DNA of 64,000 nt from Pigoraptor chileana (taxonomy: Eukaryota > Opisthokonta > Filasterea): positions 1-64,000 of the forward strand of contig CALSCR010003217.1 in NCBI GenBank assembly GCA_943704495.1, given 5' to 3'. The notes under the pieces were generated by a model, which did no database searches, was not told the origin of the DNA, and was given only the letters and a program-made list of their open reading frames with translations. The position numbers and the translations under genes were made by a program. This document shows, in pieces, positions 13,301 through 54,832 of this stretch (position 1 is its first letter; each line of letters starts with the position of its first letter).

Positions 13301-15682
13301 CCGTACTGCCGTCAAGGAGCGCAAGGAGATCCTCCTGCAGGGCATCGTTATTGCGCTCAAGAAAGCCATCCGTCGAGTACGTCACCTCCCCCGCAAAATG
13401 GCGCACCACAAAAGCTTCAGAGTCAACCAGTGACACGCTTGTCGTCCGCGCTCGCCGGGACACTGGCTTCGGCTTCGAGAGGTGCTGGTTGGCGCCGTGC
13501 ATTGTGTGTATTTTGAGGGCAACGGTGCGGTCGGTAGCCTTTGGCACGAGACACTCCTCATCAATTATTGCCATTATGCCCGTGCGCTTGTTTTCAAGCA
13601 GATCAATGATCGACTACGCTCGGGAAAACAGAAAGTCGTCACGTGAGCGCGCATTTGGTGTCAGAAATATGACCACAGACAGCCAACAAATTCAAAGTGA
13701 TCAGCAGCCTCTGCAAGGTCCATTAAGTGTTAGAGCTTGCACAAGGAGTTGTCAAGACCCAGACAAATAAAACGTACTACTCTTGTGCGATGAGCAACCG
13801 TGACACGAAGCACACCAACGACGAGCGAAAACAGCAATCAATAAGCAACAAAATCACACATGCCCCACCGAATTGTCGTCGTACGGGATTTTTTTCCACC
13901 GCAAGCCCTCCAGCTCGTAAATGAGCTGTTCCTGGCGCAGAATTTCAGCATTAAAGTGTTGCTGTATGCGCTCATTCGCGCTGTTTATGCAGAACTGCTC
14001 AAATCGGTTCGTTTCAAAGACCTCAAATCCTGAAATGTCGAGTATACCAATGCGTCCAGAAACGCGGGTCTCTCCACGGAGGCTGTCGCGGATGCGGCCA
14101 ACGAGCCACTCGAAGCACAGGCCGTACATATGCCGCGCAAATGAGTCTCTCGCCGCAACCGCCTGGGCAACAGACAGAGGAATTTCATACCGCTCCACCG
14201 CCCCCCCGCCGCCTCCCCCGGCGACCAGGGTGCGTGACACAAGCGAGCTGCGGAGTGCGCTCTCCGCCATGCCAAGGAGGCGGGCAGCGTGGGAGACGGC
14301 TGCCGTGCACAAGGCATCAGACTCGTCAATAACAGCCCCTTCCACTGTCTTTCCTCGGCGGTTGACAAATGACACATTACCCAGGTGCAAAATGGCGGCA
14401 ACGACACGGAACACATGGGATTGGATTTCTTTGGGCACCCCAACGGCATCGAGCGACGCACAGACGGACGCATATTCCATGGCGTCGTTTACACCAGCAA
14501 CTCCAGTGCACTGAGAGCGAGACAGATACTTGAATTCATCCGGGCTGCCGAGAGCATACTCCTGAGTTCGTTGCGCATAAGACAAGAGTGTGCAAAAAGG
14601 AGCGGTGGCGCAACAGGAGATGAAGATGAGAAAAAAACAGCCCGTCGGAAACTAAAGCAATTCAAGGTAGTTTTGTGGCAACACACCTCTTTCTCGGATG
14701 CAGCGGCGCCTGCAATAAGCTGGTAGAAGATGTGGAACGTGCGTTCGCCATCAGCCGCCATTGTCACGCGGCACTTCTCAAGGAGATACGTCTCCAGAGA
14801 GGCCCCCGCAATGGCGCCCGTGCGATCAAAATGGACCTCGCTGTACTTGCCGAAGCGGGAGCTGTTGTTGTTACGCAGAGTCTTTGCGTTCCCAAACGCC
14901 TCCAACACGGGATTAGCAGCGAGCAGACGGGCCTCAAGAGATGCGCCAGCCGACAAGGGCTGCTGCGATGGCTGCGGTTGTGCCGGGCTTTGCCGTTGCG
15001 TGCTCTCGGCTGCAAAAGCGAGATAGCGAAGCAGGTGCTTGCATGTCTCTGTCTTGCCGGCGCCGGATTCCCCCGTGCACAGCACAGACTGGTCCTCCTT
15101 CTGCGCACACATCCGCCGATATGCACTGTCACCGATCGCATAAACGTGGGGTGGTAAACGGCCCAGAGAGACACCGCAGTAGCGGCGCATTTGATCGCTA
15201 CCATATCCACTGATTTCCTTGTACGGGTTCACTGCGACGAGAATGGACGCCGTGTAAGTGTATATGCGATCTCCGTCAAGGTATCGGCTACGAAGGTTTT
15301 GGAGGAGTGCAGCCTCGTTGAGGTGCGTTAGTGCTGTGCTATCCTCGACGCCGTCGCTTGCCACGTCGTTTGCGGAAAGCGCGTCCTTGAGCGCAACCGT
15401 CGCCACCTTAAACTCGGCGTCGTACACAGCGGCAACAGCCGCCTTGATGTCCACAGAGCGCACCGTGACACGCCGATAGCACTCGCGGTCGCAGGGGATC
15501 CACGCCTGATCGCCTGCCTTAAGGACGACGGGCGGAGGGCTCGCGTCGTCTGCTGCGGGCACCCGCTGGTCGGCATCGTGCTTGATTGCAGCGGCCAGGG
15601 CCCGGCGCGGGCCGGAGGAGGGCTGCGGCGACAAGGCGGATGACGGGGGCGCGCCACCGCGGACACTGAGAAGCCCCGACAT
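10381..15682 (-). CDS. Myosin heavy chain with IQ, coiled coil and C-terminal PH domain
   Basis: Actin-based motor of 1537 residues. Exons 15682-14687, 14561-13869, 13613-12910, 12803-12582, 12492-10809, 10695-10381. The motor has the P-loop GESGAGKTE, switch I NNNSSRFGKY, switch II DISGFEVF followed by NRFEQFCINSANE, the actin-binding HFVRCIKPN and the converter region SKVFFRAGRLAFLE. A short neck of IQ-like arginine/aromatic repeats follows (FRAAFFALRAARRF). Then comes about 480 residues of Ala/Glu/Arg-rich coiled coil, implying a dimer. A single exon codes the C-terminal PH domain (VLLKLGGLNLDKFQERHIVL to DDWVEAI). A motor-IQ-coil-PH layout without MyTH4 or FERM does not match the classes I know well, so the class is left open. 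The PH domain suggests phosphoinositide-membrane cargo. Confidence 0.92.
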
Positions 15683-16057
15683 TGCCGCCCTTCAGCTAGA
15701 CGGCACGCAGACACACAAGTTGCTGCGATTGCGGGACGCGTTGTTGTTTGTGCTTGCACGCAACTCTGAGTACGCCCTTCTGGTTTAAAGCATTCGTGGG
15801 TTTGGGCCTGACAAGATGCTCACTTTCGGTGTATTGCAACAGTGTTATTCTTGCGGCCTTTAACAGTGGCCCGACGTTATCAAAGCATGCCTCATCACTC
15901 AGATGGCTCGGGAGACTGATGAATGTGCTCAGTTTATACTAAACTTAGTTGCGAAAACAGACTCCAAAGTCCAGCCAGTTACGTCAGGCTGTTAGTGCAC
16001 GTGACATTTTTACCGGCCGATCAGGATTTGACATGCGCAGTACAGAGAACAAAAAAA
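15683..16057. other. Divergent intergenic region, myosin / DTWD2
   Basis: These 375 bp lie between two divergent start codons. A CACGTG hexamer near 15998, inside GTGCACGTGACA, is about 60 bp before the DTWD2 start. No exon or RNA gene was recognised. Confidence 0.5.
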
Positions 16058-20872: not shown

Positions 20873-23800
20873 TCACTGAGTCTTGTCGTTAGGGCTATAG
20901 CTGGGGCTCGTCGGACTGTAGCTGGGGCTCGTCGGACTGTAGCTGGGGCTTGTCGGACTGTAGCTGGGGCTCGTTGGACTGTAGCTGGGGCTCGTCGGAC
21001 TGTAGCTTGGGCTCGTCGGACTGTAGCTGGGACTCGTCGGACTGTAGCTTGGGCTCGTCGGACTGTAGCTTGGGCTCGTCGGACTGTAGCTTGGGCTCGT
21101 CGGACTGTAGCTTGGACTCGTCGGACTGTAGCTCGGGCTCGTCGGACTGTAGCTCGGGCTCGTCGGACTGTAGCTTGGGCTCGTCGGACTGTAGCTTGGG
21201 CTCGTCGGACTGTAACTGGGGCTCGTCGGACTGTAGCCAGGACTACGCGCCGCACCAGGCGAATTTGCGGCGTAGGGACTCGGGCTTGCGGGGCTCCAAG
21301 AATTGAAAGGGCTGCTACCGTCCGACATGGGCGAGAAAGCCGCCATTTGACCGGGGGTCTGCGCAGGGCTCCACGAACTGTGCATTGGCGTCTGGCCAGA
21401 AAATGGGGTTTTGGCAGGGGACATATCGCCCTTGGGACTCTCGGCGTACAGCATTGCATCCATCGGTGCCACTGCATTTGCAAGCGGATTATCAATAGCA
21501 TGCTCCAGCATCTCTTCATCGATATGCAGCTCAAAATCGCCCGTCCCAAGGTGAGCCAGCTGACCAAGCATGATATTTTCGGTGACGCCCTTAAGCCAGT
21601 CCGTCTCGGCAAATGTAGCCGCCTCGAGAAGAACATCAACCGTCTCCTCAAATGAGCAGCGCATGAGTGGGCCGGTGTCCATTCGATTGATGCCATGGCG
21701 CGTGATGGGCATCAGCGACCCGCGGAATGTCATCACATCGCAGAGGAGAGCGAGATGGCGGTAGTTGATGTAGATGCCGTACGTGTTGTAAACGGCGTGC
21801 ATTTCCTTGAGTAGCGCGACACGAACCGCCTCAACACCCAGAGTCTGCAAAATCTCAACAACATCGTTTGAGGTCGTGCGACGAGCATCGACCTTATCCT
21901 GGCTCATAGCGTGAAGGAGATTACTGCCGTCCGTCTCGAGAACGAACTCCTTCTTCATTTCGGTTCCGCCGTCCGGCAAAAATCGACGTGCCTTCTTCTC
22001 CGCAATGTACACGCGAGTGATATCTTCAACACCAGCAAGCGGAAGATTGTTGAGCAGATTGCTTTCCAGCTTCCTCAACACTAGATCGTCTTCAGAGTCT
22101 GCATCAACGAGGCCGCCATCGCCTTTGTTACCGTTATTCGTAATACGGATACGCAGGACAAGCTTTTCGCTGTTGTCGTCGTTGAAGATGCAGTCTAGAT
22201 CGCCCTCAAACACTTTGATAATCTCCGACGCGACACGCTCGTTAGTCATGCGCTTATCCGTCATCGCCTTTCGGTCGAGCTCAATACGCAGCACCCACGG
22301 CGACAATTTGTTCAACTTCTCACCCAAGGGATCTTCAACCTCATAGTAGTCGCGAACGAACTCAATATCCTCCTCCACAAGCGTCTCGGACACTTTCGGC
22401 TCATAGTGGATCTCCGTGCGAGTCGTCAGCTTCCGCAGTACCGTGTACTCGAGAGCACACGCGACGTCCTTTGCGCGCTCCTTGTTCTGTGCGACGTCCT
22501 CAAGGAGATGCACCAGCAGAGACGGCGTCCTCGGTTGCTTTGAGACGTTGATGAGCTCCTTCAGCCGAGGGACACCCAGAGTCACGTTCTTGGCCGATAC
22601 ACCCGCAAAGTGGAACGTATTGAGAGTCATCTGCGTCGCGGGCTCTCCAAGCGACTGCGCAGCGAGTGCGCCGACCATCTCAGTGGGATGCACCATAGCC
22701 ATTGCAAACCGATTCTCAATTTCGCCGAGAAGCCACTTAAAAGCGGCCGAATTGAGACGGTGCTCCGCGACAACAAAGCGGGAGGCCAAGTTCGCGCGGA
22801 GGAAGATCTTGACAAGACGCGTCGCATTCTCCTGCGCCTCACTGCTTATCGCATCGGTACCACCGACGACGGTGAGCCGATCAAGGAGAAGACCCACTTG
22901 TCCAACGACGTCGACGGGACTGAGATCCGTCGCGTCGCGCTTGCTCAGGCGGAACATCTTTTGAGCGTTCCACACCAAACGACTCATATCGAACGGCATC
23001 GTCCATTTGAACAAGCCTTCACCCGTCGGGAAAATTTCCCGAACCGTTCGTCTGTCTTCTTGCAATTGGTGGAACTCACGCTCCAAAATGGCAGCAGAGT
23101 TGGGATTCTCCAGCAAATTATCCGCGGCCTGCGGCTGCAGCTTCGAAACGAGATCGCGACGGTCGATGTCAAATCGGTACTGCCTGTCGAAAGTCGCATT
23201 GTCGATCATCAGCGTTGGCAGTTTTTCAAACTCAAGATGAGCGCCGTCGAAACCGTCCTCGCCATATAGAAACTGGATCACATATCCCAGTGAGTTTCGC
23301 ACTGTGCCGTCGTACTTGACCATCACGTCTTCCATCGCCTTCACGAGTCGACGTTGGAGGTACCCAGTTTCACTCGTCTTCACGGCCGTATCAATCAAGC
23401 CCTCGCGCCCTCCCATCGCGTGGAAGAAAAACTCGCTGGGTGTCAAACCGCTGAGATACGAGTTTTCGACGAATCCACGACTTTCCGGCCCATAATCGTC
23501 CTTGATAAAATGAGGCAGCGAGCGGAAACGGAAGCCGAAGGGGATACGCTTTCCCTCGACGTTCTGCTGACCGACGCACGCAATCACCTTACACCACACA
23601 ACGACACAAACAGCATGTCAGATTGGAAAACAGCGCACGCAGACAGACAAAAGTAGCGCAAATAAACAGCGTCGCTGCTATACGAACCTGTGATATGTTG
23701 ATGAACGAGCCTTTCGAACCCGCGATGACCATCAGACGCATGCTGTTCGACTCGTCCAGCGAATTCTGCGCTCGCTTACCCGCATCATCACGCGCTTCGT

Positions 23801-26482
23801 TCAAAATGCGATTGACCTCGTTCTCAAACGTCTGTCTCAGGGTATTGCCGGGAGTGGGTTCCAGTTTGCCGTGGATGGCATTGAGGATGACTTGCTTCAC
23901 GTCCTCCTACGTAACACAAATTCGAAGTGTGAGAAACGTGTTAGACCAATGAAACAAATTAGTGTATAACTGAACAAAACAGACTGGCATCACCAAACCA
24001 AACCGGTCGCGCACATTTCACGCACACACACTTAGATACAGACATACCTTTGCCTTGGTAATGAGCGCACTGATCGTTTTACTAGTCTCGACGTCGGCGA
24101 TCGTGTCACGGATGCCAATACTGTGACCTTCCGCCATCAGCCAATTATTGACCAGTCGCTGAATGCTACCGAAAAAATTCCGACAGATCTCGTGCCCGCA
24201 CTCCTTGAATATCACGTGGATGAGTCCACCGTCTGACGCGCCGAGAGTCTTTTTGCACATGATCCCTGAGATGAGCTTCCCGCGCTCTATCAGCACGCGC
24301 GTGTCACCGGCCGTCAAGTGACGAAGAGGAGATTTGTCTTCAGCCTCGTCGTGTGTTGAGTGGAAACGCACAATATTGACTTTGTCGGGGATAATGAGAG
24401 AAATGAGCTGCTTGCCGGTCCACTGCGGTTTCGGTTTCAATATCGCGGCCTGCGGAATCCTGCCGTCCCACTCAGGCAGCCACATCAGCAGGTTCATGAC
24501 GACGTCAAGGTCGACAAACGTACTCCGCTTCGTAAACTTCCGCACTCCCGTCAGCGTGTCCTGGACAATGCCCATGACCGGACGATTCGCCTGGGGAGTC
24601 AAGATCTGTCGCGGGACAGCCATAATCTCCGAAATCTCCGCCCTCGTCTCGAGGGACTGAGGGACGTGCATGTTCATCTCATCTCCGTCGAAATCAGCGT
24701 TATACGGTGAAGTCACACTGTTGGCAATTTACAAAAGAAGTATACAAACGATTAACCATTGACACTCAAGAAGCCAATATGTTCTATTACAAGTGTTAAG
24801 CAGCGATTGCCCAGTCGCATTACCATATACTAACCTCAAATTGAGACGGAATGTCGACCACGGAAGGATGCGAATCCGATGGCCCATCATGGACATCTTG
24901 TGCAGCGACGGTTGGCGATTGAAGATGACGTAGTCCCCATCGATAATGTGGCGCTCCACCTTGTACCCGTACTGGAGATGAATGTCGCTGCCAGGTTTCC
25001 GGCTATACTGGAGATTCAAACGCAGCCCATCGTCACGGATGATCGCGAGGGCGCCGGGATGCTCAAGCGGACCCCGCCGGACCAATTCTTGCATCCTGTG
25101 GAAACCCAAGCATAATGACAATGAAAATCATTATTATTGTCCGAGCAGAAACCACACTGTGACAGTGAAATCATGAAAACAGCACAACGAGTCCCACCTC
25201 TCGATATTGTACGGCGTGACAATCTCAGGAAATGTCATGTTCAACGCTATCGACCGTGGAACGCCAAGCTCGTCGAGGCTGAGATTCGGATCTGCCGTGA
25301 TAACTGTGCGCGCGCTGAAATCAACACGTTTTCCCATGAGGTTCCCACGAATACGGCCCTCCTTTCCCTTCATGCGCTGACTAATGGACTTGAGCGGGCG
25401 TCCCGACTTCTGTGTTGCAGGAGGCTGGCCAGGTATCTCATTATTCACATACGTCGCAACGTGATACTGCAGCAGCTTGTGGAACTCCTCGAGAATGTGA
25501 TCGGGGGCTCCGTTTTGTTGCTGCAGCCGCAGGCTGTTGTTGGCGACGATTATGTCGCTCAGCTTGTGCGTGAGGTCGTCCTGCGCCGCCGACGAGCTGT
25601 CCATCATAACGGCGGGACGGACGGCCATCGGGGGGACGGGGAGAACTGTGACCACCATCCAATCCGGGCGCGAGTAGAGAGGATCGAGACCCAGCGCAAT
25701 GCAATCTTGGTCCGATATGCTCTTAAGGCGGTTGAGTACTTCCTCGGGCTTCAGCGGCCGCTTCCGGTCGTGCGATTCGGGGTCAACGTCCTTCCATTCC
25801 ACCGTCAACGCAAGGCCATCGCGGCGAATTACAGGTTGCTTGCGACCGCACCCGCCGTGGCCCACGCCGTGCAGAGCATCGCCATTTGCCATACTGACAC
25901 CATCAACGTCCGTAGGGGTCGCTTCGCACACTGTCTTCGTGCGGCACAACTCCACCATTTTCGTGAAGCGAAGTGAAGCGCGCTTAATCTTGAGATATTC
26001 GCGAAATTTGGGATCGCGTTGGTCGACAAGAAGCTTCCCACAGTGAAAGCACACACAACGCAGTGTCTTGATAATGGTAGTAAGGAATCCAATGGCATAC
26101 ACAGGGCGCACTAGTTCAATGTGTGCGAAGTGGCCGGGGCATTCGCCACTTGTTCCCGTGCAGCTCTGGCACTTGAACCCTTTATCGATGGTTCCCATGC
26201 GTGGATCACACACTCCCCCCGATTTGGGGTGTCCATTCTCGAACGCCTCACGATATTCGATCTTGCAGACGGACATTTGCTTCTGCGCAAGTGCAACGCC
26301 CGACCACAGGTGAGGCCGGCGAATGATGCACAGCCCGCATGAACACCACACCAGCAAACGATCGCACACGAGCGCCAGCCAGCAACACCCAACCCCCACA
26401 CTGGACGTACCACTTCCTCTGGACTGAAGATGCCGAATTGAATGTGGTGGATGTTTCGTAGGGGAGCCGCCGAGTGCGCCAT
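20873..26482 (-). CDS. POLR2A: RNA polymerase II largest subunit RPB1
   Basis: Catalytic subunit of RNA polymerase II, 1673 residues. Exons 26482-26411, 26282-25198, 25095-24835, 24717-24048, 23906-23688 and 23587-20873. The start [18 protein letters not shown] with SPEEV is the usual N-terminus. The clamp zinc site (CQSC, CPGHF) follows, then the metal-binding [10 protein letters not shown] in the third large block. The bridge-helix and trigger-loop region reads [20 protein letters not shown]. After a Ser/Pro-rich linker come 16 perfect YSPTSPS heptads and the end YSPNDKTQ. The CTD is shorter than in yeast (26) or human (52) and lacks an acidic tip. All phases close. The start codon is 754 bp from that of the divergent PLAA gene. 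Confidence 0.98.
20900..21235 (-). repeat. RPB1 CTD: 16 tandem 21-bp heptad repeats
   Basis: Sixteen consecutive 21-bp units each code YSPTSPS with no amino-acid change. The units differ from one another at only about one to three synonymous positions. A seventeenth unit begins at 20899 and diverges after YSP. The CTD recruits capping, splicing and 3'-end factors according to its phosphorylation. Confidence 0.95.
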
Positions 26483-27236
26483 TTTCCTCGAAAAGACCCA
26501 AGGGGTCGTGGGCGAGGCCCAGACGAGTGTGGCAAATGGGCAGCGGAAACTCTCAGCCCTGTGGCGGCGCAAAAGCAGCTCAAATCATATGTGTGGGATG
26601 GATGGCCGTCAATTTACCACACGACGACCACAATGACGAGCAGCTCCCGCAGGCAATAGTGAAAGTCAAAACGCAGCCGACGGCGCCCAACTAGTGTATA
26701 ATAAAACTAAAACGAGTTGTTAATCAGTTTTCTCTCTGCTGAGGTATACAGCAAAACACAAAACGGATGCCGATGATATCGAGAGGTAGGTGCGTGAAAG
26801 ACAGTATGTTGCCTGCGGAAGCAGCCACAGTGCATGTCTGTCTTGTCTGTCGGAGGGATACTTGAGCGCGCGTCGCATCTGCAGGATGGATGTGTCTGCC
26901 AAAGGGACGGGGATGATGGGATGCATCCGTCATCCTCTGTTGTTCTGTGGGCAGCTGGTGTTTCTCTCTCTCTCAGTCTTTCGCATCAGCATACGGGGTG
27001 TTGCAGACGGGGAAAAACGGTTGGCGCCATCAAAATGTCAGCTGATCGTCTGCCGAGATCTCGCAAATGCTCACAGCAGTAACACCCGGAACAGTCCTTC
27101 CGGCTCTCCAGTCAGCACTTTTTTACTTCAGCGAAAATGCAGCACGCAGAATAGCGAAAAGAGAATTAGTCGCGTTTTAAGAGGAAACATTCGTAGAGTT
27201 CCTGTCGAAAAGACGAGCGATCGTTTGCTTGCAGCC
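26483..27236. other. Divergent intergenic region, RPB1 / PLAA
   Basis: These 754 bp separate two divergent starts. The PLAA frame stays open from about 26790 without a stop, but that stretch has no similarity I can recognise and homologues begin at the WD40 domain. A CT-rich tract lies near 26963-26980. Confidence 0.5.
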
Positions 27237-30200
27237 ATGTTCAAGCTTTCGGCGACGCTTGCCGGTCACTCCCAGGATGTAAGCAGAAAGCCGCAATTTT
27301 TTGTAAGCATGACCGGAATATGCCTTTAAAGAGCTCGTGGGAAGCAAAACTGATGCATGAAACGTACGCGCCATTCAACGCAATCAACGCAATCACAGGT
27401 GCGTGCTGTTTGCACGACGCCTTGGGGCCACATCCTCACTGGGTCCCGTGATACGACCGCGCGGTTGTGGGCCGCAAACGAGGCGGCGGGTGCCTACGAA
27501 TGCATTGCTGTTCTAACTGGCCACACACACTTTGTTGGCGCTGCGTGCCATGTGCCAGCGCATGGGCCGTTTGAGCATGGTGAGTGGGATGGTGCGTGCG
27601 CTTGCAACCAGTTGAGTCTTACCGTCAACTGCCTCTCTCCCTCGCGTTGTGGAGTCTGTCATTGCCCAGAGCACTGACTTGCATCCTGCATCTTACTCTC
27701 CTGTTACAGGATTGTTGGCCACTGGCGGTCACGACAAACTCGTTATGACCTACAACCTTGACGACCCGACCGTGGTTGTGCACACGCTCGTTGGGCACAC
27801 GGAGCCAGTTTGCGCACTTGCTGCAGCCGACAACGGCGTGCTCATTTCGGGTTCTTGGGATCGGTTGGTAGCACTTGGGCAATGCAACAAGGCAGTGCAA
27901 TAAGTAGTAAGGGCGTAAGGGAGGCTGAATTATTGCTGACCTCGCGGAACCGATTTTTGTGCAATGGCAGCACCGCTCGTGTTTGGGCGGATGGGCACTG
28001 CGTTGCCGTGCTCACAGGACACGAACAGTCGGTATGGGCTGTCCTTGTTATCGAAAACGGACGTTATGTTACTGGTGAGTGTTTCCTTGCTATTCTGGTG
28101 CGTGTGGTAGATCTGTGGATGCGAGTTTATGTGAACATGCGATAGCTTGAATTCCAATGTTGCTTGAATATCCGCACTGCAGGCTCTGCGGACAAGTCCA
28201 TTCGTCTGTGGGAGGGGGTGCAGTGTGTGCGAGTGCTCACTGGGCACGCCGACTGTGTGCGGGGTCTTGCCCTCGTGCCGCACGTGGGCTTTGTGTCCTG
28301 TGGGAATGACAGGCAAGTGAGGGCCTGTTACCACTTTGTCATAACGATTAATACTATTTGTTACGATGCGCTCTGACTGACCGCTCATATGCTTGAATTA
28401 TGCAGTTCTGTGAAACTGTGGTCGGCCACGGGTGATATGCTCGTCGAGTTTAACGGACACTCGTCATTTGTGTACGCGTGTGCGGCAATCTCTTCCACAA
28501 CGTTTTTGTCATCCGGGGAAGACCGCACCGTAAGGATATGGACCGGTAAGTTTATTTCGGTTTGGCATGCGTTTTGCGCCGTATGTGTTGCGGATTCCGT
28601 GGCGCTAACTTGCGGACTATGCTGGCAACCAGCTGACGGACAGTGCAGGCAGGCTATTCACCACCCAGCCACATCGGTGTGGGCAGTGGCAGCCCTTCCC
28701 AACGGCGATTTTGTGTCGGGTACTTCCGATGGGATGGCGCGCGTTTTCTCTGCTACACAGGACCGGCAGGCGGACGCCGATTCCCTCCAGGCAAGTTGTT
28801 GGTGTGTTGCTGGCATTTACAAACCAAATAGATCAGCGCACTTTTATGAGTTTGGTTGTCAGCTAATGTTTCGAAATATACACGCAGGCTTTTGAAGACG
28901 AAGTAGGGAAGTTCAGCGTGCACAGGTATGCCACCATTTTGTTCACTTGTGCTGTGCCGTATGCTTGTATAGAGCGGGATTCGCATGACTTGGACTTGCT
29001 GGCCCAACACTTTGTTTGTTCCACGCGCAATCGTAATTGTTTGACATGCAGCGAATCCGTGGGAAGCATCAACAAAAAAGACTTGCCTGGCGTTGAAGCC
29101 CTGCAATCCCCTGGTACGCTGCCTTTAAATCCTTTTGTTATTTGGATATTATGTGCTGGCAAACGTGGAGTGGCGCAGTTGAGTTGCGAACGCGAAGTTT
29201 AAAATGAAGATATGTCGGTTTGAGGTTTACTGTACTGTTTGAGGCTTAGTGCTGGCACGACCGCCAACTGCTGTCGGTTCTCCACAGGTACTCGCGACCA
29301 GCAGGTGCGAATGATTCGTCAGGGAAGACTTGTCGAGGCCTACCAGGTACACTGCTTGGCCTTGCTTTGCACACACTGTGAGATCCCAGCTAGACCGACT
29401 GACTAATTTTTTTGTGCTCGTGCACCTTGTCACTAATATCCTTGCTTGCAACAGTGGAGCGCGTCAGAGGGGCGTTGGGTGAAGGTTGGCGAGGTGGTTG
29501 ATGCCGTGGGGTCGGGCCGCCAGGTGCTCGAGGGCAAGGAGTACGACCATGTCTTTGATGTTGACCTTGGTGATGGCCTTCCCACCCGAAAGCTCGGTTA
29601 CAACAACACCGGTGGGAGGCGTTGATGTACCCGTGTTCTTTAATTTCTGTTCCTGGAATCTTAAAAGTGTCGCGCATAACAACTATCTGACTTGTTGCAC
29701 TTGATCCAATTACACAGAAAATCCGTGGGTGGTTGCCCAGGATTTTATACACCGGGAGGAACTTCCGCAGCATTTCCTCGACCAAGTGGCAAACTTTATT
29801 GTCACGAATGCCAAACCCGTAATGCTCGAGGCGGTCGATGATACGACACAATCGCAGTTTGCGGACCCATTCACAGGTAGGTTTGGTGCTGCACGTGACT
29901 GACTGTTTGCGCTTGTGGACTACACACACACTAATTTGACGCTTGTTTGTGCAGGCGCTCACAGTTATGTGCCGGGCAGCGGCAGCGCCGCTCCCCGACT
30001 CCCGACTAATGCAAGTGAGTTCCTATTGTGAATTGACTGGGAGTCGGTTTTTGTGGTCGAGTTGTCAAGTTGGCTCAAAGTGACTGGCTGGCTTCTCTAT
30101 TGCCTGGGTTACAGACTCACCGAATGCGCTGTCTTGCTTCATTTTCGATACGGCGAGTGCCGCACTGTTGGGGAAGAAAGTAGCACAGTTCAGCGACTCG

Positions 30201-31672
30201 CTTCGTGGCGACCAACAGGTTTGTGCAGTATTTGTCGAGTTTGTGCGTGGTTTGGATTCATGCGTCCGCTTGTTCGTATCTCACATATAAATTCCCTGAA
30301 ATCTCGTCATTTGCAGCTGTCCGCTGAGGAAATGCGTGCCCTGGAGACTGCGTCACCGCACATTGAAACGGGTGACAAGGCCAGGCGCTTCAACTTCACC
30401 GCACAACACATTGCCCTTGCAGACAAGATGCTGGGATGGCCGGCGGACATGGTTTTTCCTGGTGCGTCCATTGGTTGTCTGCACCTTATGACCATACAAG
30501 GCTTTGATAGGCGATGGCTGCGCAAAATGTTTGCGCATCGCATTTATAGTCCAGGATGTGCCAGCATTTTCAATTGCTTGTCTGTCTGCGCGACCGTCTC
30601 CTCGCAGGCATCGATATTCTTCGTATGATTGTACTGAATCCGAGGCAGGCGAGCCTTGTGGCGACGCCTGCGCGCACGCGTGAAGTGCTCACAGTGTCGC
30701 GGCTTGGCATGGAAGGCTCCCATGATGCAGCGTGCATGCTTGCTCTGAGGTTCTTTGCCAATGCCCTGTCGGTGGAGGCGTCTGCACCCGTTGTCCTTGC
30801 CGTTGCTGGAGAGGTATTGAGGTCATTTCTTGGATGTTTGAAAGCCGCGATTGTATGTGTGCGTGCGTTTGTGCGTGCGCTTGCGTCTAATCCCACATCG
30901 CTCGCGCGGATTCGTATTGCACAGGTCATCTCGAGACTTCACAAGAGTGGCAATGTGGCAACCAAGAACACCCGCGTTGCCACAGCATCGTTTCTTGCCA
31001 AGTAAGTTGTCGTTCCCTGTTCGTTGGCGGGGTGTTTCATCGTGGAATCGGATCTCGCACTAAATGAGTTTTAATCTCACGTGCTCTTGCCGCACAGCCT
31101 CTTTATTCGGGGAGGGACTTCGGCGGGGGCGTGGCAACAAGGCGCATTGGCACTGCTTTTGCAGGTACTCAATTGTTTCAATGGTATTTGGTGTTGTGGC
31201 ATTATGGCATGCTCTGTGATAATCGTGCTGTGTGTCGCAATAGGCAGTTAACGCAGTGCTCATACCCGCGCGTTCTGAGCAGGGATTTGCCACGGAGACA
31301 GAGCCGGATGTCCTTCTGCGGACACTCTGTGGTCTGACCGCCTTGGTGAGTGTGTTGCTGTGTGTTTTCCGTGTTCTTTTTCACTGTGCTGGTTAGTGAC
31401 CGCCTGTGGTATGGGCCACTGGAAGTAAAATCAACGAGGCAGCCCATCCACAGTGATCCGAGTGGAACGAGCATCACATTGGACGCTGATTCTGGTCAAC
31501 CTGATCATCCACCCGCTCACAGGTCTCCAAGCAGAGGTCACGTGCATCCGACATTGCCGCCAGTGGCGCTCTGCCGCACATACAGCGATTGCTGGACAGC
31601 CCATCTGACCCGGTGCGCAAGATGGCTGCGCAGTTGGGCGAGCTCCTGCTTGCTGCTGGGAAGCACGCTTGA
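27237..31672 (+). CDS. PLAA: PLAA/Doa1/Ufd3: WD40-PFU-PUL ubiquitin and p97 cofactor
   Basis: Ubiquitin-binding p97/Cdc48 cofactor for ubiquitin homeostasis and organelle quality control. Twenty exons give 764 residues: 27237-27278, 27399-27579, 27710-27863, 27971-28074, 28183-28312, 28406-28545, 28633-28790, 28888-28925, 29052-29113, 29288-29346, 29455-29611, 29718-29876, 29955-30014, 30115-30218, 30317-30461, 30608-30813, 30925-31001, 31098-31164, 31244-31345, 31523-31672. A seven-bladed WD40 propeller fills about 1-303. The PFU domain spans about 345-460 (GEVVDAVGSGRQVLEGKEYD, ENPWVVAQDFI). The PUL armadillo domain covers the last 270 residues, ending PVRKMAAQLGELLLAAGKHA. Introns 5 and 7 start with GC. 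The start chosen is the ATG directly before the first blade. Confidence 0.95.
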
Positions 31673-31852
31673 GCTGAGGCGCAACAGGCAGCCTGCAGGC
31701 AATGTGGCACATACGTGCTTTGGCCTACTGTCACTCACGTGCTCTGATTAAACGAAACACGGACGAACAATAGACGACCATAGCAGTGGCAATGACAACC
31801 ACTCTCTAAAAGACAATAAATTGGTGCTGTGCCTGTAAATTATCGTATATTA

Positions 31853-33892
31853 TCACGCTTGTGACTGGGAGGCAAGCCGCTTCAGTGATGCGTTTTCGTT
31901 TCGTAGAGATTCGTTTTCTAATTTCAGTGCGTTGACCTGTCTTCGAAGGTCATCCTGCGGACGAAAGTGGGGAAATGGCATGCACCACACAACTCAGTTA
32001 TCGCTCAACGCAACGCACATGCAGCCCAATTGTGGTCTTCGGTTGACTCACCAATGTGTCAAGGACACGGGAATGGTCTTTAGGACTGTGGAGGAATGGA
32101 ACAAACAGAATTCAGGTCAGTGTCTTAGGCTATCTATACCCATGGACGGCACATGGAAGAACCAGAGAGAATCAGAATTCCAGACATCAGCGCAAATTCA
32201 CCTCCTCACGGATGAGGGAGACAGACCCAGCGATCGCCAACAGAGCCACTCCACTTACCCGCCGGCATCGTCATCCTGTGGCCTTCGCAAGAGTTCCAGC
32301 AGCCGAATGAGCATTTTCTGTTGCTGCACGCCCTGCTGCACGAGCACGTCGATCTTCTGCTGCAGACTGGCTGCGGTCGCCGCACCTGATCCCGCAGATG
32401 GCCTCCCCGCCGCCAATGCGCCCCCCGTTCCCACACCGTGCGCGTTACTGGGCTGCGATGACTGCGCCTGTCCCTGCCCCTGCTGGCCCTGCATGTCCGC
32501 TCGCGTTGCAACCCCGAGGGCGAATCCGTCTGACCGCTCCTGCTCGTGGCCGCCAGCTGCGGCGTCAAACGATGACGCATCACCAGCGATGGCGGGGGGC
32601 GGTAATGCGACGAGGTCACGTGGATCACCATCGGCCCTTCCTCTTCCCAGCGACCCGTCCAATGCCATCAACGTGGCAGGCTGTGTGGGCGATCCCGGTG
32701 GCGTCCCAGTACCTCCAGCTGCGAGCGACTTGCGAGCTGCGGGGGGGGCAGCCCGCCCCGTGACGGGCGGCGCAGCCACACCAGTTTGGGTCGGTGCTGC
32801 AGCATTCGACAGTGAGGGCGAAGCAAACGAGGAGGGCGCGTGCGAGTGGCCCAATGCCGAGGGGGGTGCACCGGATGATAATGATGATGATGTTGAAGAC
32901 GACGGCGGCGGGGGCTGTTGGGTCGCGGGTGGTTGCGTCGCTGGAGTCGCTGCTGACAATTGCGTGGGCTGTTGCACCGACGCCGGCCCCGACGCGTTGG
33001 GCAGCTCGACACAATCGCGCACCGTGAACCGGCCGCGCTTGTAGCGCACCGGATTCATGAGCGACTGAGCTTTGGCACGTGGCTTATCGTCGCCAACATC
33101 AACTATGAGGAAGCGCCGAGGTCGCATACGCGGAGCGGCAGTGCCCTCGTCTCCGGAGTTTACATCCTTTACATGAAAACGAGTCCGGCGCGCAGGCGCA
33201 CCTGCCTCATCCGACTCGTCGTCGGCATCAATGTGAGAGGAGTCCATCCGCATGTTCAATTCTTTCGGCTCCTTATCGGAAATTTGCGCAACGCCTTGTC
33301 GTTCAGTGTCCTCGGGGGCATTCTCCGACACACTAAGATCTGTCGCACGTTCAGCTGAACCAAGAGCCCGTAAAGCACAAAGGGCATTTTTAGAAACATT
33401 ATCAACAAAAAGAGAGATGCCCACACCATCTGGCTTAAGTACATGCCCACCTGCCCTTGAGTCTGAAACCAGGCTGTCGTCCTCCACTGTTTCGACAACA
33501 AAGCGCCGCGCGGGCACATTGTCGGCTCCCACAGGTAGGCCATCACTAGGGACCACAGAAGAACTTGCCATAGGTTCCTCGATGTAATCGGCGGAGAGCT
33601 GTTCCTCCTCCTCCTCCTCTTTAACATTCACAATGCGAAAGCGAGCAGGCTTGTTCCCTGCTACTGCTGCAGCGGCCATTGAAGATTCCGCCGGAACAAT
33701 GGCAGGCGCAGCAATTGGCTCAGCTTCGTCGCGTGCCATACTACTAGCCCCTTCATTCGGCGGACGCGAAGCACTCGAATCACCAGCCATTTGCGCTGCA
33801 GTCGCATCGGCTGTCGGCGGCGCAGGCACAACATCCTCAACAACATGAATCTCAAACCGCCGCCCCACACCGGACATTACCGGTGTCTCCAT
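31853..33892 (-). CDS. TSC22-like zipper protein with six RFx[VI] docking motifs
   Basis: Exons 33892-32259, 32085-32052 and 31954-31853 give 589 residues. Six motifs fit RFx[VI]: RRFEIHVVED near 11, ARFRIVNVKE near 83, RRFVVETVED near 129, TRFHVKDVNS near 237, RRFLIVDVGD near 259 and GRFTVRDCVE near 287. Motifs of this type bind the CCT domains of OSR1/SPAK and WNK kinases. A Pro/Ala/Ser/Thr-rich disordered region fills 300-500. The C-terminus is a coiled coil ending in LRRQVNALKLENESLRNENA then SLKRLAS. This matches the TSC22 box (LxxQ[IV]xxLxxxNxxLxxENxxLKxLAS). The 34-nt exon 2 is required to join phase 2 to phase 0. In animals TSC22D proteins act with WNK and NRBP; a similar scaffold role here is inference. 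Confidence 0.75.
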
Positions 33893-46374: not shown

Positions 46375-49300
46375 TTAGAAAGCTTGCGAAGGGGCAGGAG
46401 CCTCAGCAGTGTGCTTTGCATCATCGCTTTCAGTAGGCGCGACCTTCTGCTTTTTCTTGTTGTTGTTGATAATGACAGCGACTACAATGGCAATGAGAAT
46501 GGCGCCTCCGACAGCCACGGGCACTGCAATGGCCACCACATTGACGCCGGAGCTCGACACCCAGGTGAGGCCAAAGTATGTAAACGACGCAAACGTGGGG
46601 CGGACGGCGTACAGGCGGGATTCGGCGGCTGAGGTGAGGGATGCGCTCTCGGCTGCATTTGCGCCCGCAATATAGAAGCCGACAACAACAGAGCCGTCGG
46701 GCTGGTCCACGACAGACGTCACAACGACCGATGACGATGTCACTCCGCTGCTGCCGATTGCACTTGCAATGCCGCTCTTGAGCTGAGCCATGAGCGTCGA
46801 GTTCGCTGCGTTGAGTGTAGCCGCATTCACGCCGTTTCCGCGCAGGCTTGCAAAAATACGGTTGACCGGGACGTTGCTACCTTGGCTCTGGACACCGCCG
46901 AATGTGGTGAGATGGGTCGTGCGGCATGTGATTGTCGTGCTGGTGCGGTTGACAAGGCGAACGCCATCCGTCTGCCACTTCTTTGTGGTCGCGTTGTAGT
47001 ATTTGCATTCGAGCGCTGTGCAATAAACAGTAATAAATGGGGGAATATTGTTAATGACATGTCGATCCAAGTGCTGATTAACAACAGTCCGGCCTATTCG
47101 CGTCGCTGCAAAACCACGTGGTAAAGAAGAATTGTACTCACGTCCAGTTTCGGAGGGGTCGATCTGGATGACAATGTCAATGCCGCTGCTCAGGCCGTCG
47201 ACATCAAACTCTTTGTTTGTCTTGCTGTCTGTAAGCGAGAAGTCGACGATAGTGCTGTCCACACTGCAAGGAATAGCAAAATGCAAATATCAGTTACCGT
47301 AAACAGCTGCGCGAAATGTGAACGAGGAGAGATTGCTGACACATCTGCGCAGGTAAGACGAATGCACTCACGTGGTGCCGCTTCCATAGGGGTCGCTCTT
47401 GTAGGCCGCGTACACGCCGCCGACATTCACCGTGCAGCCCACACCGGTCGCCTGGTCGCAGGCAGTTGTGTTTACAATGTCTCCCATTGCATCACTCGAC
47501 ACCGTTGCTCCGCCACAATTAGATCCTGTGCAGCCCGTTCCAAAGCTAGCCGACGAATTATCCGAAGCCGAATACTGCTGCACCTGCGCAGAAACCGTGA
47601 TCGAATTGTCGCCGGATGTCACAGTTTGGGGTGCCTCGCCTGGCGCCGCATCCGAAATCAGCGCTCCACCCAGATTGGACACCATGTCCGTGACAGTGCT
47701 GTTGCTTGAGCTCGTTCCGTTGGATCCCGAGAGGGCATCGAGTGCAAAACCACACAAATCCTTGTCAACTGCGCCACCGCCGCTTCCGCTAAACTGCGAC
47801 TTGAGTGCGGCGTCAACAACCTTTCCGAGGTAATCCGTGACCTTGGAGCGGACGGTCGCGGGCACGCACGTCCCAGATAGCGTCATTTGGTTAAGGAAGG
47901 TCGTCAGGCGCTTGATGTTGGCGTCGTTCAGCTCCATCTTCGGGTACAGCTTGTCAAACTCGGTCAGCACAAACTCAAGGGCGTCCAGCGCAGTCTGCGG
48001 GCAGTCCGTACCAATGGCGCGATTCACAAGGTCCAGAGCGAGCACCAGAGTCGTCAAGTAGGACGGATAATCGCCATTATTGAACTCTGTGCTTTCGGTG
48101 ATTTTCGCCCGCGCAAGGGCGATTTGAGCAGATACATCGTGGTTGGTGACGGCCGCCGGGGGCTTAACAGTCACCTGGATAGTGGCACGTGTCGACGCGG
48201 AGAACTTGTCGTAAGCAGTGCAGTACACGGTCAGGTTGTAGTTGGCAGACGATGATCCGGTCGGGAATCGCAGCGTCGCCACATTGTTAGGCTTCGGCTC
48301 AACAAGGGAAACAGGGCGCTCGTTCGACAGGACATATCCCCAAGAATACGTGAGTGGCGTGTCGTCGTCGACAAATTTGGCGGTGAATTCAAACGAATCA
48401 CCAGCCTCACCCGTGTATTTGTCAGCGGACAGGTCAATGAGAGTAGGGCCGCCGTTCACGAGAACGTCGATGTCGCTCGTACCCTTGGCGCCCGCAGCAG
48501 TTGCCTGCAGACGGAAGCGGTACTTAGAGCCGGCCACCAGCGTGTCAGACTCAATGCAAAGCGATTGAAGGGTGACCGAACCGCCTGCAGTGCACACATT
48601 CGTCGAGTTGGAGAGATCCACGGTCGCGAAGCCATTTGCGGCAACGTTAGACCACACAAGCTTGGCGCTGACATCACTAGAGCCCGTGATGACGTTGGCC
48701 GTAATGCGCACGCGCTTGTTCGAGAGGACTTTGCCATTGTCGCCCACTTCGTCAAACACAATCGATGGGGGATTTCCCGCGACAACAGTTACAGTGGTCT
48801 CCACAAAGCTGTTGCGGCTGCCCTTGAAGACCGTCATGCGAAACGTGTACTTGCCGGGTGCAAGATACGTCTTGGGCACGCGCACCTTAGCAACCGCGGG
48901 ATCGGCCGCGCGGGCCGACGCATTCGTCGAAAACAGAGACGTACCGACTTCGATGTTGCCGCACACAGAGCCGCCGGCGTCCGCACAACGCCAGCTGAAT
49001 GAGCAGGGGTTCTGCGCAGCCTCGTCATCCGACGCATCGTCGTCAACGCATTCGCCTTGGAGAACAAAGTCGCGGTCGGCAGCAAACGTCTGCTCGGCGC
49101 CACCACTGATGCGCGCAACGAGGTCAACGCTGCCCACGGTGAGGATTTGCGATGCCGATGCAGACACGCTTCCTTGCGTGACAGTCAGCGTCGCAACGTA
49201 CGTTTTGCCACTGCTCAGCGTGTATTTTGGAATCACGAGATTGAGCTGTGTAAGCGCGCTCGCCTTCAGAACAACCGACGGATTGTCAAACGTCCACGCA

Positions 49301-52300
49301 TACTTCAGAGATGCGGTCGTGTTGCACGGGGGCACAGCAATGCCATACAGGGTGGTGGCGGACGAGCGGAAGGGGATTGTCGTAGCGCGCCCGCCAGAGA
49401 TTGAGACCGAAGGGAGGGCCTGCGCACTCTTTCGCAGCACGGCCGACAAAGCGTCACTCCACACTCCAAGGAAGTTCTTTGCTTTGACGACAATGCGGTA
49501 CGACGAGCCCGCAGCAAGGTTTCGGATGACCGCGCGCTCAGTGTTGCCACCGGCGTTTAGGTCAGAAACAATCGCAGACGTATCCTCAACGGGATCGGCA
49601 ACAACAGTCCAGGACCAAGTGACATCACGGCCTCCAGAACCGTCGACGACGCTGTAGCGGATGACAACGTCCGACGTGCACGAGCCAACCTCTTCTGGCA
49701 CATCGACAATGATCTTCACCGGGGCAAGCTCAGTGGGGGGTGACACGCTGAGCGTCGTCGTCGCAGAGCGGAAGAAGCGCTCTCCATTGGGGCTGAGACG
49801 CGAACCGCCAACCGAAATGGTATCGAGGGGGGCGATCGTGGCGCCGCTGCGGAGAGAGACTGTCAGCAGCGACTGCGTCGACCAGAAGCACTGCGCGTTC
49901 TTTCCAAACTTAGCAACGGCCGCATCGTTGAAGTAGCCGTCGCAGGATGTGCCCGTGCGCTGAGTCATGTCGCGGTTGAAGGACACTGCAAACGACCCGC
50001 CGCTCGTTGAAAACTGCGCGACCGATGGTGTCGGTGCGGCAGCATACACAGTGAAGACAGGCGCGCTGTTTTTGTACACAACCGCACTTGCATCACCGTC
50101 GAAAATAACATAAACGCTAAGACGTGCCGAGAACGAGTAGTCAATGCTGCATGAGAGAGACGAAGAATTCGAGAAAGTGACCGGCGTAGCAAAGCGCGCG
50201 TCGGTGTCAACGTTGATGAACACGCACTTGGTGTTGGCGCCATTGTCGACAAATCCGCTGCCAGACAGGCGCACGACGAAGGGCCCAGGGAGCGTTCCCT
50301 CCGTTGGCGCAATGCCGCTGACCGCCACGTTGCCCAGGATGGCAAACGTGACCGAGTTGGTTGCACTGCCAGACACCGTCACTGTGACATCATACTTGCC
50401 GGTCGTAAGCGTCTCAGGAATCGGGCAGTCGATCGCACCCTTCCTGACAAATGTGGCCGTGACTGTCGTCGGCGTGCCACTTGTGACATACGTGCAGAAG
50501 ATCTGCGACTGGCTTGTTGCGTTACCTGTCGGGCCGTTAATGCGCAGTTTGCTCACCAAGCCCGCAATGGCAGCGGCAGGTGACAGGGTCGTGATCTTGA
50601 CGCACGAAGAATCGTCGCCATTGCAGACATTGCACGAGTCGCGCTTGGCAGACCCACGGGGAACGCCAGCACAGTCTGCGCACGTAGAGTTGTTTCCGCT
50701 GCAGACGCCGCAAGCATCCAGGGACGCGTCCTTGCCGTCGCACACGCCGCAGCTGTCCACCTTCGCCTTGCCGCTGCACACGCCTTTGCAGTCAACCCAC
50801 CAGCGCGCAGTGCCATTCTTGTAGCAGAAGCCGCACGAGTCGCGGATGGCCGTTCCAGAGCACTCTCCGGCACAATCCAGCTTCTTATTAAAATTGTCCG
50901 GTGTAGCGCAGTCGCCACACTGGTCAAACTTACTGTTCCCGTTGCACACGCCGGCGCAGTCCTTGAGGTAGTTGGGCGTCTTCTGCGTGCTTCCGCCCGT
51001 GCATTCGCCGCAGTCGTCGCGCGTGGCCTTGCCGCGGCACACTCCTGCGCAGTCCTTAGAAGCGTTGAAGCCCTTGCAGTCGCCGCAGTCGTCGACCTTC
51101 GCCCCAGAATTGGGGACGCCGTCACAGCCAAGGCAGGACTTTCCGTCGCCACCGCACACGTTGCATACGTCGACCTTCTTGTTTGAGCCCGCCACACCAT
51201 CGCATCCTGCGCACGATTTGCCATCGCCATCGCAGACGCCGCAAGCGTCGAAAAACTTGTTTGAAGAAGTCGAGTTGTCGCAGAACATGCGTTTGACGGT
51301 GATAGTGATCGATTGCGCTCCAAGTTCACTGGATGCGTCGAAGTCGGCAGTTCCTAGCGTGCGCAAAATATTGCCACGGATACCCCTATTGGCACCGTCC
51401 CAGGGCAGGACAGTCACAGTCGCATTCGCAAAGCTTTTCTCGGAGGGGAAATAGCGGATGCGAGCATTGCGGTTCAGGAGGTAGACGTTGCGCTGCGTAA
51501 TGTCAGAGGGAAAGTTGATCCAGTTTGCCGTCGAAAAGACCTTCACCTGCCACAGGCCGGCGCTACTGCCGTCGTTAGCAACGCGAGGAGAGAAGTCGAC
51601 GATTGCAATGCCCAAAGCGTCGCCATCAACGTCATCGCCGATCGCGTCAGCAATGGACGGCACAGTGTCTCCCGTTGGCGGGGTTGCCGTCACGTTGTAC
51701 GCAAGGGATGTCAGCGCAAACGAGCCCGCGTTCGCCTTGAGTGTCGGGCGGTCGTTCACGGCTGTGACATCAACGTTTAGCGTTCCCATTTGCGACGATG
51801 CATTCGAGTCGGTCACCGCCGTGGCGTCCCTCTGGATGGCCCGGTATGTCAGGCTTGATTTGCCGACAAAGTTAGCAGCGGGCCGGAAGCGCACATACGA
51901 CCACACGGGGACCACGGGCGTTTGTCCATTGGTGGCATTGAGAGTCCGCCACGTGCCATTCTTGAGGACCTCCCACACGCCATTACCATTCGTGTTGACA
52001 ACAGCAAGGGCGGGAAACTCATTTGCGGAGTACACAAAGACGTCCAAGGCGTTCTGGTTGTCGCTTGCTGTCTCAAGTTTGATTGTGGGGTCAAATCCCT
52101 TGAGAATCGTAGCAAAGACGTCCGCGGGAATGTTCTTGAGGCGCGTGTTGCCATCGGGCGCACTAAGGTCGAGGTTCAGCTTTGTGAGCACGAGCTCCAG
52201 GAGCGGCAAGAAAGTAGCCGAATCCAACGCGCTATCAGCGTCTTCCATGCCCAGGCCAAGCGTCGACAGGCGCACGCCAGGGTTTTGCGCATCAAGAAGG

Positions 52301-54832
52301 TCCTCTGCCATGGCGGGGAGGGTGATCGTCGTGGGGTCCATGCTGGGTGTGTCTGCCACATTGTTCACCTTGACGGTAATGGCAATGGAAAACTGGTCAA
52401 TGTGGTCAAACGCGCCGCCAATCGCCACGCTCTGCGACTGGTTATACACGCCACCGTCCCAGCCATACGCGCGCAGGGTGCCCGTGCCAAAGAAATTCGC
52501 CTCAGGCACAACACGGAGGAGCGTCTCTGGGCGCGCGCGAAGCACCACGGCCTTGGAAATGTCCACCTCGCCAAGCGCCGCCCAAGTAGATCCGTTGTTG
52601 ACAGAGTACTGGAACACTGACTTCTTCGAATCCATGACCATCATCTTGAATTGGCTAAATGCAATAGCAATGCCACCGTTCGACGCATTGCGCTGCGCGA
52701 GAGCGACTTTGAGGAGTCCATCGAGGGACACGGGAAGGCTTGTGGTGTCTTCATCAAACGCCGGCAGGGTGAATGATGTGTCACGGGAGAACACATCGAC
52801 ATGCGCAGTGCAAGGCGTGTTGGCGGGAATGCAGGCATTTTTGATGTCGCAGCGGACAGTGCCCTCTGCGCACGGAGCCACGCAAGGAAGGCTGGAGGAA
52901 ATGCACGCTTGCAAGATATCGCAGTATGATGACCCGGCAGTGCATGTCGGCGGGCAGAACGTGCCAACAACAATGCACGGGTTCGCGGTGGTGGCGCAGG
53001 CGCTGAAGCCGACGTTGCACACTTTGTTGCACGGCTGAGCGTTTGTGATGCATCCGGTCGTCGCCTTGCAAAACCACGACCCCGCAGCGCAGGTTGTGTT
53101 CACGCCACACGCCACAGAGCAGGTGGCATCGGCGCACAGCGTCTCGCCATCCTTGCAGATGGGGTCTTTGCATGTGCCATCCTTGAGCAAGCACGCCGAG
53201 GAAGTCACGCAGTAGATCCTGTCAGCCAGGCACACTCCACCGCAGCGCTCAGTCCGCTTCACGCACGTGTTGGTAGTGTTGCAAAGATACGTCGATGTGT
53301 CCGCGCAGACCACGGGGCAGTTCGCTGTGGCGGGAATGCACTGACCCTTGCTGGCGCAAAAAGAGTACGAAGGCGCACACTCCTGGCCGCACTGGCGGGT
53401 CTTGTTTATGCACGTGCCGCTGCACGAATACTCGTCAATAGAGCACGGGGTTGAGCAGCTCACGGAACAGCGGCCGAGCGCAAGGCAAAACACCTCGTTC
53501 GCCTGGCAGCTCGATACCGCAGCAGAGGGGCTTGGCGTCGGACTGGCGCACGCCCCACTGTCACGTGGTACGCACCCGTTCTGCTGCATACAGAAGATCT
53601 TTCCGGCTTCGCACGTGACCTCGCCACCGCTGGGTGATGGACTCGCCTGCGGAGGAGGCGACGAGTTCCCAGCCTGCGGGGGCGGAGAGCTTCCAGCCGG
53701 GGGAGGAGAGCTGCCAGCCGGGGGAGGCGACGAGTTGCCTGCCTGCGGGGGCGGAGAGCTTCCAGCCGGGGGAGCAGAGCTTCCAGCCGGGGGAGGCGAA
53801 GAGTTGCCTGCCTGCGGGGGCGGAGAGCTTCCAGCCGGGGGAGGAGGGGAGCTTCCAGCCGGGGGAGGCGACGAGTTGCCTGCCTGCGGGGGCGGAGAGC
53901 TTCCAGCCGGGGGAGGAGGAGAGCTTTCAGACGGAGGAGGCGACGAGTTGCCTGCCTGCGGGGGCGGCGAGCTCGCTGCCGGGGGTGGGGATGCGCTCGG
54001 AGGGGCCTGAGACGTCGATGCTATTCGGTGCACACGTCAAGGAAATGCATTAGTGAGTGTCGGTGAAACGAACAAGAAGTTGTTTTCGCATGAACTCGCA
54101 CGAACATGGCACTTACCACTAGGGGGCGGATTGGCGCAAGTGACGTTCACACACTTAGAAGAGGCGACACACCAAACAGTTCCACTGGGGCATGAGACAG
54201 AATCACATGTGTCGTTGCTGTTGATGCACTTTGCCAATGTAGAGCAGAACTTTTGACCTTCAGGGCATGTCGCGTTGGCGGGCTGTGTGTAAAAGAGATG
54301 CCGAAAGAGCGCGAGTAAGGCACAACCGAGACGACGACACACGTGCAGTTTAATGTGCATCTCTCACATGGCAGCCACAAAATGCACAATTGTACTTACA
54401 TTTCCGCACGGGTTCGGGTTCACGCATGAGCGTGTTTCAAGACAATAGACCTGCGCATGGCAAATGCAAACAGCGTTAATGTAACAATAGCGATAGGATT
54501 GCTTCATAATGAGCGAAAGTCCTCACACACACAAGTCAAAACAGCCGTCCAGCAAGTTATTCCATGCTCACCAAGGGTGAATCGCATTGGATTGTTGATG
54601 TGCAGTTCTGCCCGCCATTAGAGCAGTCCTGTCCTCCAACGACGACAGCCCCGAGAGAGGGGTTGCACAGCAACAACGCTGCAATGCGACCGATGAGAAG
54701 TGTCAGTCTCAAAATGGTTGGCCATCGGGAAGACAAAGTTTGGTGAAGGGGACAACAACAATGCAACAAGAACGAGAACCACCAACCTGTTGCAGCGACG
54801 ACGAGCGCCACGGTCACTCGCAAGGGTGCCAT
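46375..54832 (-). CDS. Giant single-pass surface protein: Cys-rich, IPT, REJ and GPS/GAIN-like
   Basis: Exons 54832-54787, 54678-54572, 54450-54400, 54282-54117, 54020-47372, 47263-47142 and 47015-46375 give 2593 residues. In order: signal peptide (VALVVAATALLLCNPSLG); Cys-rich repeats; a PPPAGSS/PPPQAGNSS stalk; many small Cys-rich modules; three cadherin-like/VCBS-style repeats; a CGVC-type Cys array; two IPT/TIG domains; a PKD/REJ-type region; a GAIN-like segment and a GPS-like site. The GPS keeps HLT near 2415-2417 but only two cysteines. About 115 residues follow, then one transmembrane helix near 2538-2563 and a 30-residue tail. Polycystin and adhesion receptors share REJ/GPS, but no multi-pass domain exists here. 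A role in adhesion or mating is inference. Confidence 0.85.
50590..51290 (-). repeat. CGVC-type cysteine-rich repeat array within the REJ/GPS protein
   Basis: About ten units of the type DxCGVCxGDxxSCxxC with the linker GxAxxD code this segment. Variants include CNVCGGDGKSC, CGDCKGF, CGECTGG and CGVCDGK. The unit resembles repeats common in bacterial and protist extracellular proteins. Confidence 0.75.
53637..54005 (-). repeat. Proline-rich tandem repeats within the REJ/GPS protein
   Basis: Alternating PPPAGSS and PPPQAGNSS units, about 15 in all, form an extended stalk. The DNA units are nearly identical, so copy number probably varies between strains. Confidence 0.9.

Follow-up and report, generated by a model that had tools for sequence, protein, structure and literature searches.

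CCT domains bind peptides of the form RFXV/I (PMC4512625, PMC12266122, PMC5346417), and CCT-related domains are present in WNK and NRBP1 (PMC12266109, PMC12266122). In animals, the long isoforms of the TSC22D proteins have a disordered N-terminus bearing two Rphi motifs, RFRV (motif A) and RWTC (motif B), and a dimerizing helix at the C-terminus, and motif B serves as the main NRBP1 site (PMC12266122). SPAK is recruited to condensates by TSC22D2, which can bridge SPAK to WNK4 (PMC12266109). The disordered domains of WNK have been reported to be conserved to protists (PMC11472293), and NRBP has been reported to be absent outside Metazoa, choanoflagellates included (PMC12254500, 2025). Our literature search for TSC22 in Capsaspora found nothing. 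The title of the 2024 paper in which the module was defined (Cell Rep. 43, 114417, cited in PMC12266122) reportedly places the evolution of the TSC22D, WNK, and NRBP families with Metazoa. The 64-kb window analyzed here, by which we mean the whole stretch of DNA at its full length, contains a gene whose predicted product, on balance, we read as a disordered, dimeric, multivalent docking scaffold for CCT domains of the TSC22D long-isoform type.

The gene lies on the minus strand between an ATG at 33892 and a stop ending at 31853, and its three exons encode a product of 589 aa. Exon 1 (32259..33892, minus strand) is an open frame of 544 full codons plus 2 nt that ends in a GTAAGT donor, and it holds all six RFx[VI] motifs, followed by a disordered Ser/Pro/Ala/Gln-rich middle and a terminal helix. 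Exon 2 (32052..32085, minus strand; GPKDHSRVLDTL) is 34 nt long, shifts the phase from 2 to 0, and is bounded by the acceptor TTCCTCCACAG and the donor GTGAGT, both of which are strong. Exon 3 (31853..31954, minus strand) follows the acceptor CGTCCGCAG and encodes the leucine zipper DDLRRQVNALKLENESLRNENASLKRLASQSQA in 33 codons plus the stop. The 34-nt exon (32085..32052) is needed in the model given that exon 1 joins the zipper exon in frame only with it; the gene span given in a first-pass annotation of this DNA stands, but its exon structure does not, since its two-exon join omitted the 34-nt exon. A model in which exon 1 is spliced straight to the zipper exon was rejected as out of frame. 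The start codon is uncertain, and the coding sequence may begin in a 5′ exon further upstream, given that an acceptor-like CTCTCAG lies at about 33920 (minus strand), just 5′ of the presumed ATG, and that the frame is open up to it. In a single-sequence AF2 model of exon 1, made without the zipper exon, pLDDT was mostly <50 except in the helix at residues 502-536, and the exon 1 product is predicted to be mostly disordered.

The RFx[VI] array is real and nonrandom. The 589-aa protein contains RFx[VI] six times, spanning residues 12-291 (~280 residues), and every RF dipeptide in the protein (6/6) is part of such a motif. All six are on the minus strand: motif 1, RFEIHVV, at 33839..33859 (residue 12); motif 2, RFRIVNV, at 33623..33643 (residue 84); motif 3, RFVVETV, at 33485..33505 (residue 130); motif 4, RFHVKDV, at 33161..33181 (residue 238); motif 5, RFLIVDV, at 33095..33115 (residue 260), a candidate equivalent of animal motif A; and motif 6, within YKRGRFTVRDCVELP at 32999..33043 (RF at residue 288), a candidate equivalent of animal motif B. 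The first-pass annotation had described six N-terminal copies trailed by xxV and acidic residues, and we found them where it had placed them, with acidic residues close behind each and with xx[V/C] next in 6/6, five copies ending in V and one in C. Six of the seven Phe residues in the first 320 positions fall inside the motifs. Composition predicts 0.06 copies, and no more than 3 appeared in any of 100,000 shuffles, against the 6 observed; a six-frame translation of the 64 kb gave 25 other RFx[VI] matches in ~124,000 codons, a background of ~0.12 per 589 residues. The codons vary among the copies (CGG, CGC, and CGT for R; ATT, GTC, GTA, ATA, and GTG for V/I), which argues against recent tandem DNA duplication. 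Together with a count far above chance, this divergence suggests that the peptides have been kept at the protein level. They are RFx[V/I] peptides in a predicted disordered region, the feature of CCT ligands, and the N-terminus contains the motif A form (RFxV) in six copies. The reading of the protein as a multivalent CCT-docking partner is thus well supported by the array, the binding itself being predicted.

We compared individual motifs with those of animal TSC22D proteins, in which motif B has the form [FY][KR]RGRWTC (for example, EPYRRGRWTCVDVYE in TSC22D4). Motif 6 reads YKRGRFTVRDCVE, and its YKRGRFTV matches the context of animal motif B without the Trp and Cys. A profile of four animal motif-B segments picked out YKRGRFT at 2.9 bits, compared to ≤0.8 in 5,000 shuffles, in a comparison that was chosen after looking. 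Animal TSC22D proteins also carry FQITSV near the N-terminus, and by eye motif 1, RFEIHVV, which is likewise near the N-terminus, shares its F-x-I-x-x-V spacing. None of the six motifs is a Trp-type motif B; all are Phe-type. The TSC22D2 numbering used here agreed with the published one exactly for motif A and within one residue for motif B (PMC12266122). Neither the motif A/B region of this protein nor that of the animal proteins found a match in the PDB.

The C-terminus is only suggestive of TSC22 identity. The zipper of the TSC-22/Dip/Bun family is preceded by the TSC box, a conserved helix of the form DLVKSHLxxAVREEVE. Against the Pfam TSC22 profile (PF01166), our protein scored 15.2 bits as a whole, 18.3 in 88 aa, and 21.3 in its 44-residue C-terminal end (exons 2 and 3; E 3.2e-4), all lower than the gathering cut-off of 30 bits. 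Human TSC22D4 scored 101.9 bits, its zipper alone 37.1, and c-Jun 14.1. TSC22 was the top, sub-threshold Pfam match for the 44-residue end, covering profile positions 13-48 only, that is, the zipper half, with HALZ scoring equally and bZIP also matching weakly; none of 60 heptad-preserving shuffles reached E 3.2e-4 for any family. The first-pass annotation had seen the TSC22 box pattern in the C-terminus and had proposed this HMM search, which upheld the zipper half as a match to the C-terminal end but left it short of the cut-off, on a par with HALZ, and without a detectable TSC-box half. The zipper has a TSC22-like core pattern, Asn occupying two consecutive "a" positions and the end resembling LKxLAS, and it is identical to human D1-D3 at 12 of 29 positions. 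Compared with human TSC22 zippers, it scored 49.5, a value that 1.2% of register-preserving shuffles equaled or exceeded. GCN4 scored nearly as high in this comparison (47.75), and the zipper alone is therefore compatible with TSC22 but nondiscriminating. The N-terminal half of the TSC box was not detectable, the Pfam match beginning at profile position 13. A predicted helix (residues 502-536; 32285..32389, minus strand; SLQQKIDVLVQQGVQQQKMLIRLLELLRR region; pLDDT ~70-96 in single-sequence AF2) was considered as a hidden TSC box and rejected, given that it aligned to the box no better than ~10% of shuffles. An NCBIfam search gave no match, and viral contigs yielded no relative. Membership in the TSC-22/Dip/Bun family is unestablished because two of its defining features, a score at or above the Pfam cut-off and a recognizable TSC box, were sought and not found. 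We consider kinship with animal TSC22D to be unproven and an even proposition, and its likelihood is raised by the layout of N-terminal RFxV-type motifs, long disordered middle, and C-terminal zipper, together with the motif-B-like context.

The same features bear on how else the protein might be read. It is possible, though in our estimate rather unlikely, that a multivalent CCT-docking protein arose here independently of TSC22D, by convergence that placed RFx[VI] peptides beside an unrelated leucine zipper. Short motifs arise easily, the similarity of the zipper to TSC22 is barely above that of GCN4, HALZ does equally well in Pfam, and no TSC-box half is detectable; however, the order of the elements, the YKRGRFT context, and the rank of TSC22 as the top Pfam match all point to TSC22D. 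Binding of the motifs to another partner seems improbable. In such a case the protein could be a poly-SUMO reader, its motifs pairing a hydrophobic core with acidic residues as SUMO-interaction motifs do, and by eye three of the six fit hydrophobic patterns (IHVV, IVNV, and IVDV) with acidic residues next to them. However, the Arg-Phe that is invariant in all six is foreign to SUMO motifs, and motifs 3, 4, and 6 fall outside the core pattern.

We likewise give little credence to the protein being a nuclear factor, bZIP-like or otherwise, that dimerizes through a generic zipper and in which the RFx[VI] array would be regulatory or incidental. The weak bZIP and HALZ matches of the zipper fit such a factor, but neither a basic region nor a homeodomain lies ahead of the zipper, and the shuffle test argues that a sixfold array is not incidental. 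Least probable of all, and in our view very remote, is an error in the gene model itself, whereby the true gene would be a 401-codon open frame on the plus strand (31839-33044), antisense to the TSC22-like exon, and the minus-strand frame would only mirror it. Part of the plus-strand frame did score positive (40.5) under a rough codon model built from two ORFs of the window. However, it is shorter than the minus frame (401 versus 557 codons) and translates to Cys-rich low-complexity sequence, whereas the three exons of the minus-strand gene stay in phase, its splice sites match the consensus, and it carries the sixfold motif array; we judged the plus-strand frame to be a mirror artifact.

The scaffold reading of the TSC22D long-isoform type can be set beside three known systems. 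The order of elements (docking motifs, low-complexity middle, C-terminal zipper) is the same as in animal TSC22D long isoforms. With the TSC22D1/2/4 long isoforms and Drosophila BunA (PF01166), the protein shares N-terminal CCT-docking motifs, a long disordered middle, and a zipper with two successive "a" Asn residues and an LKxLAS-like end, and the context of its motif 6, YKRGRFT, resembles their [FY][KR]RGRWT. It differs from TSC22D1/2/4 and BunA in having six Phe-type motifs where they have one RFxV and one RWTC, in the want of a detectable N-terminal half of the TSC box, in its short C-terminus, and in its place below the Pfam cut-off. The C-terminal regions of WNK kinases similarly carry several RFxV motifs and a coiled coil in a disordered chain, but our protein contains neither a kinase nor a CCT-like domain. 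Its heptad pattern, in which Leu occupies d and Asn occupies a, is also that of generic leucine zippers such as bZIP and HALZ, from which it differs in having no DNA-binding region ahead of the zipper.

We hypothesize that the zipper dimerizes the protein and that, because each chain has six motifs, one dimer would offer twelve sites at which CCT domains could dock, those of OSR1/SPAK (Fray)-type kinases and perhaps that of WNK. Under osmotic stress, such a scaffold would bring kinases together in clusters or condensates, and this clustering would favor the activation of OSR1 by WNK, in the manner of animal TSC22D2 with SPAK. The partner is likely to be the CCT domain of OSR1/SPAK or WNK rather than NRBP, given that all six motifs are Phe-type with no Trp-type motif B among them and that NRBP is reported to be animals-only; the missing Trp-type motif is in itself weak evidence that fits a non-NRBP partner. 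A six-site protein of this kind could provide a simpler system in which to ask if the valency of docking is what drives kinases to cluster in the control of cell volume.

The window also contains the gene for RPB1, the largest subunit of RNA polymerase II, with YSPTSPS repeats (20876-26552, minus strand). Over 600 residues, this RPB1 scored 712 bits against its human counterpart and 580-645 against those of yeasts, compared to 612-672 for human versus yeasts, making it about as distant from human as the yeasts are, and slightly nearer. This distance argues against a typical animal as the host, which is probably a non-animal eukaryote. The assignment to a protist in the first-pass annotation is thus backed insofar as RPB1 speaks against a typical animal, but RPB1 names no lineage. 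Since NRBP is reported to be absent outside Metazoa, this host is unlikely to have all three members of the animal set, WNK, NRBP, and TSC22D. The presence of a TSC22D-like scaffold in a non-animal would uncouple the scaffold's origin from NRBP's, and, if confirmed, the design of the TSC22D scaffold would be older than animals. More tentatively, and with some doubt, we suggest that a true pre-animal TSC22D homolog may have served OSR1/SPAK or WNK through a Phe-type array before NRBP, and that animals may later have cut the array to the A/B pair and retuned motif B, from Phe to Trp, for NRBP.

Across the window as a whole, genes are densely packed and their introns are short. A likely PLAA/Doa1-type gene (27600-31750, plus strand) meets the TSC22-like gene tail to tail; its WD40-like exons were recognized by eye and its PUL domain by Pfam. 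An unconventional myosin is encoded at 10429-15691 (minus strand), with a motor domain by Pfam and, after it, a stretch resembling a coiled coil; inspection by eye suggests that a PH domain may lie at the C-terminus. A very large open frame of 2222 aa at 47371-54036 (minus strand), probably for a surface protein, contains long SPPP-rich repeats and a REJ domain (E 4e-45), and a phytochelatin synthase (Pfam E 3e-53) is found at 60312-61610 (plus strand).
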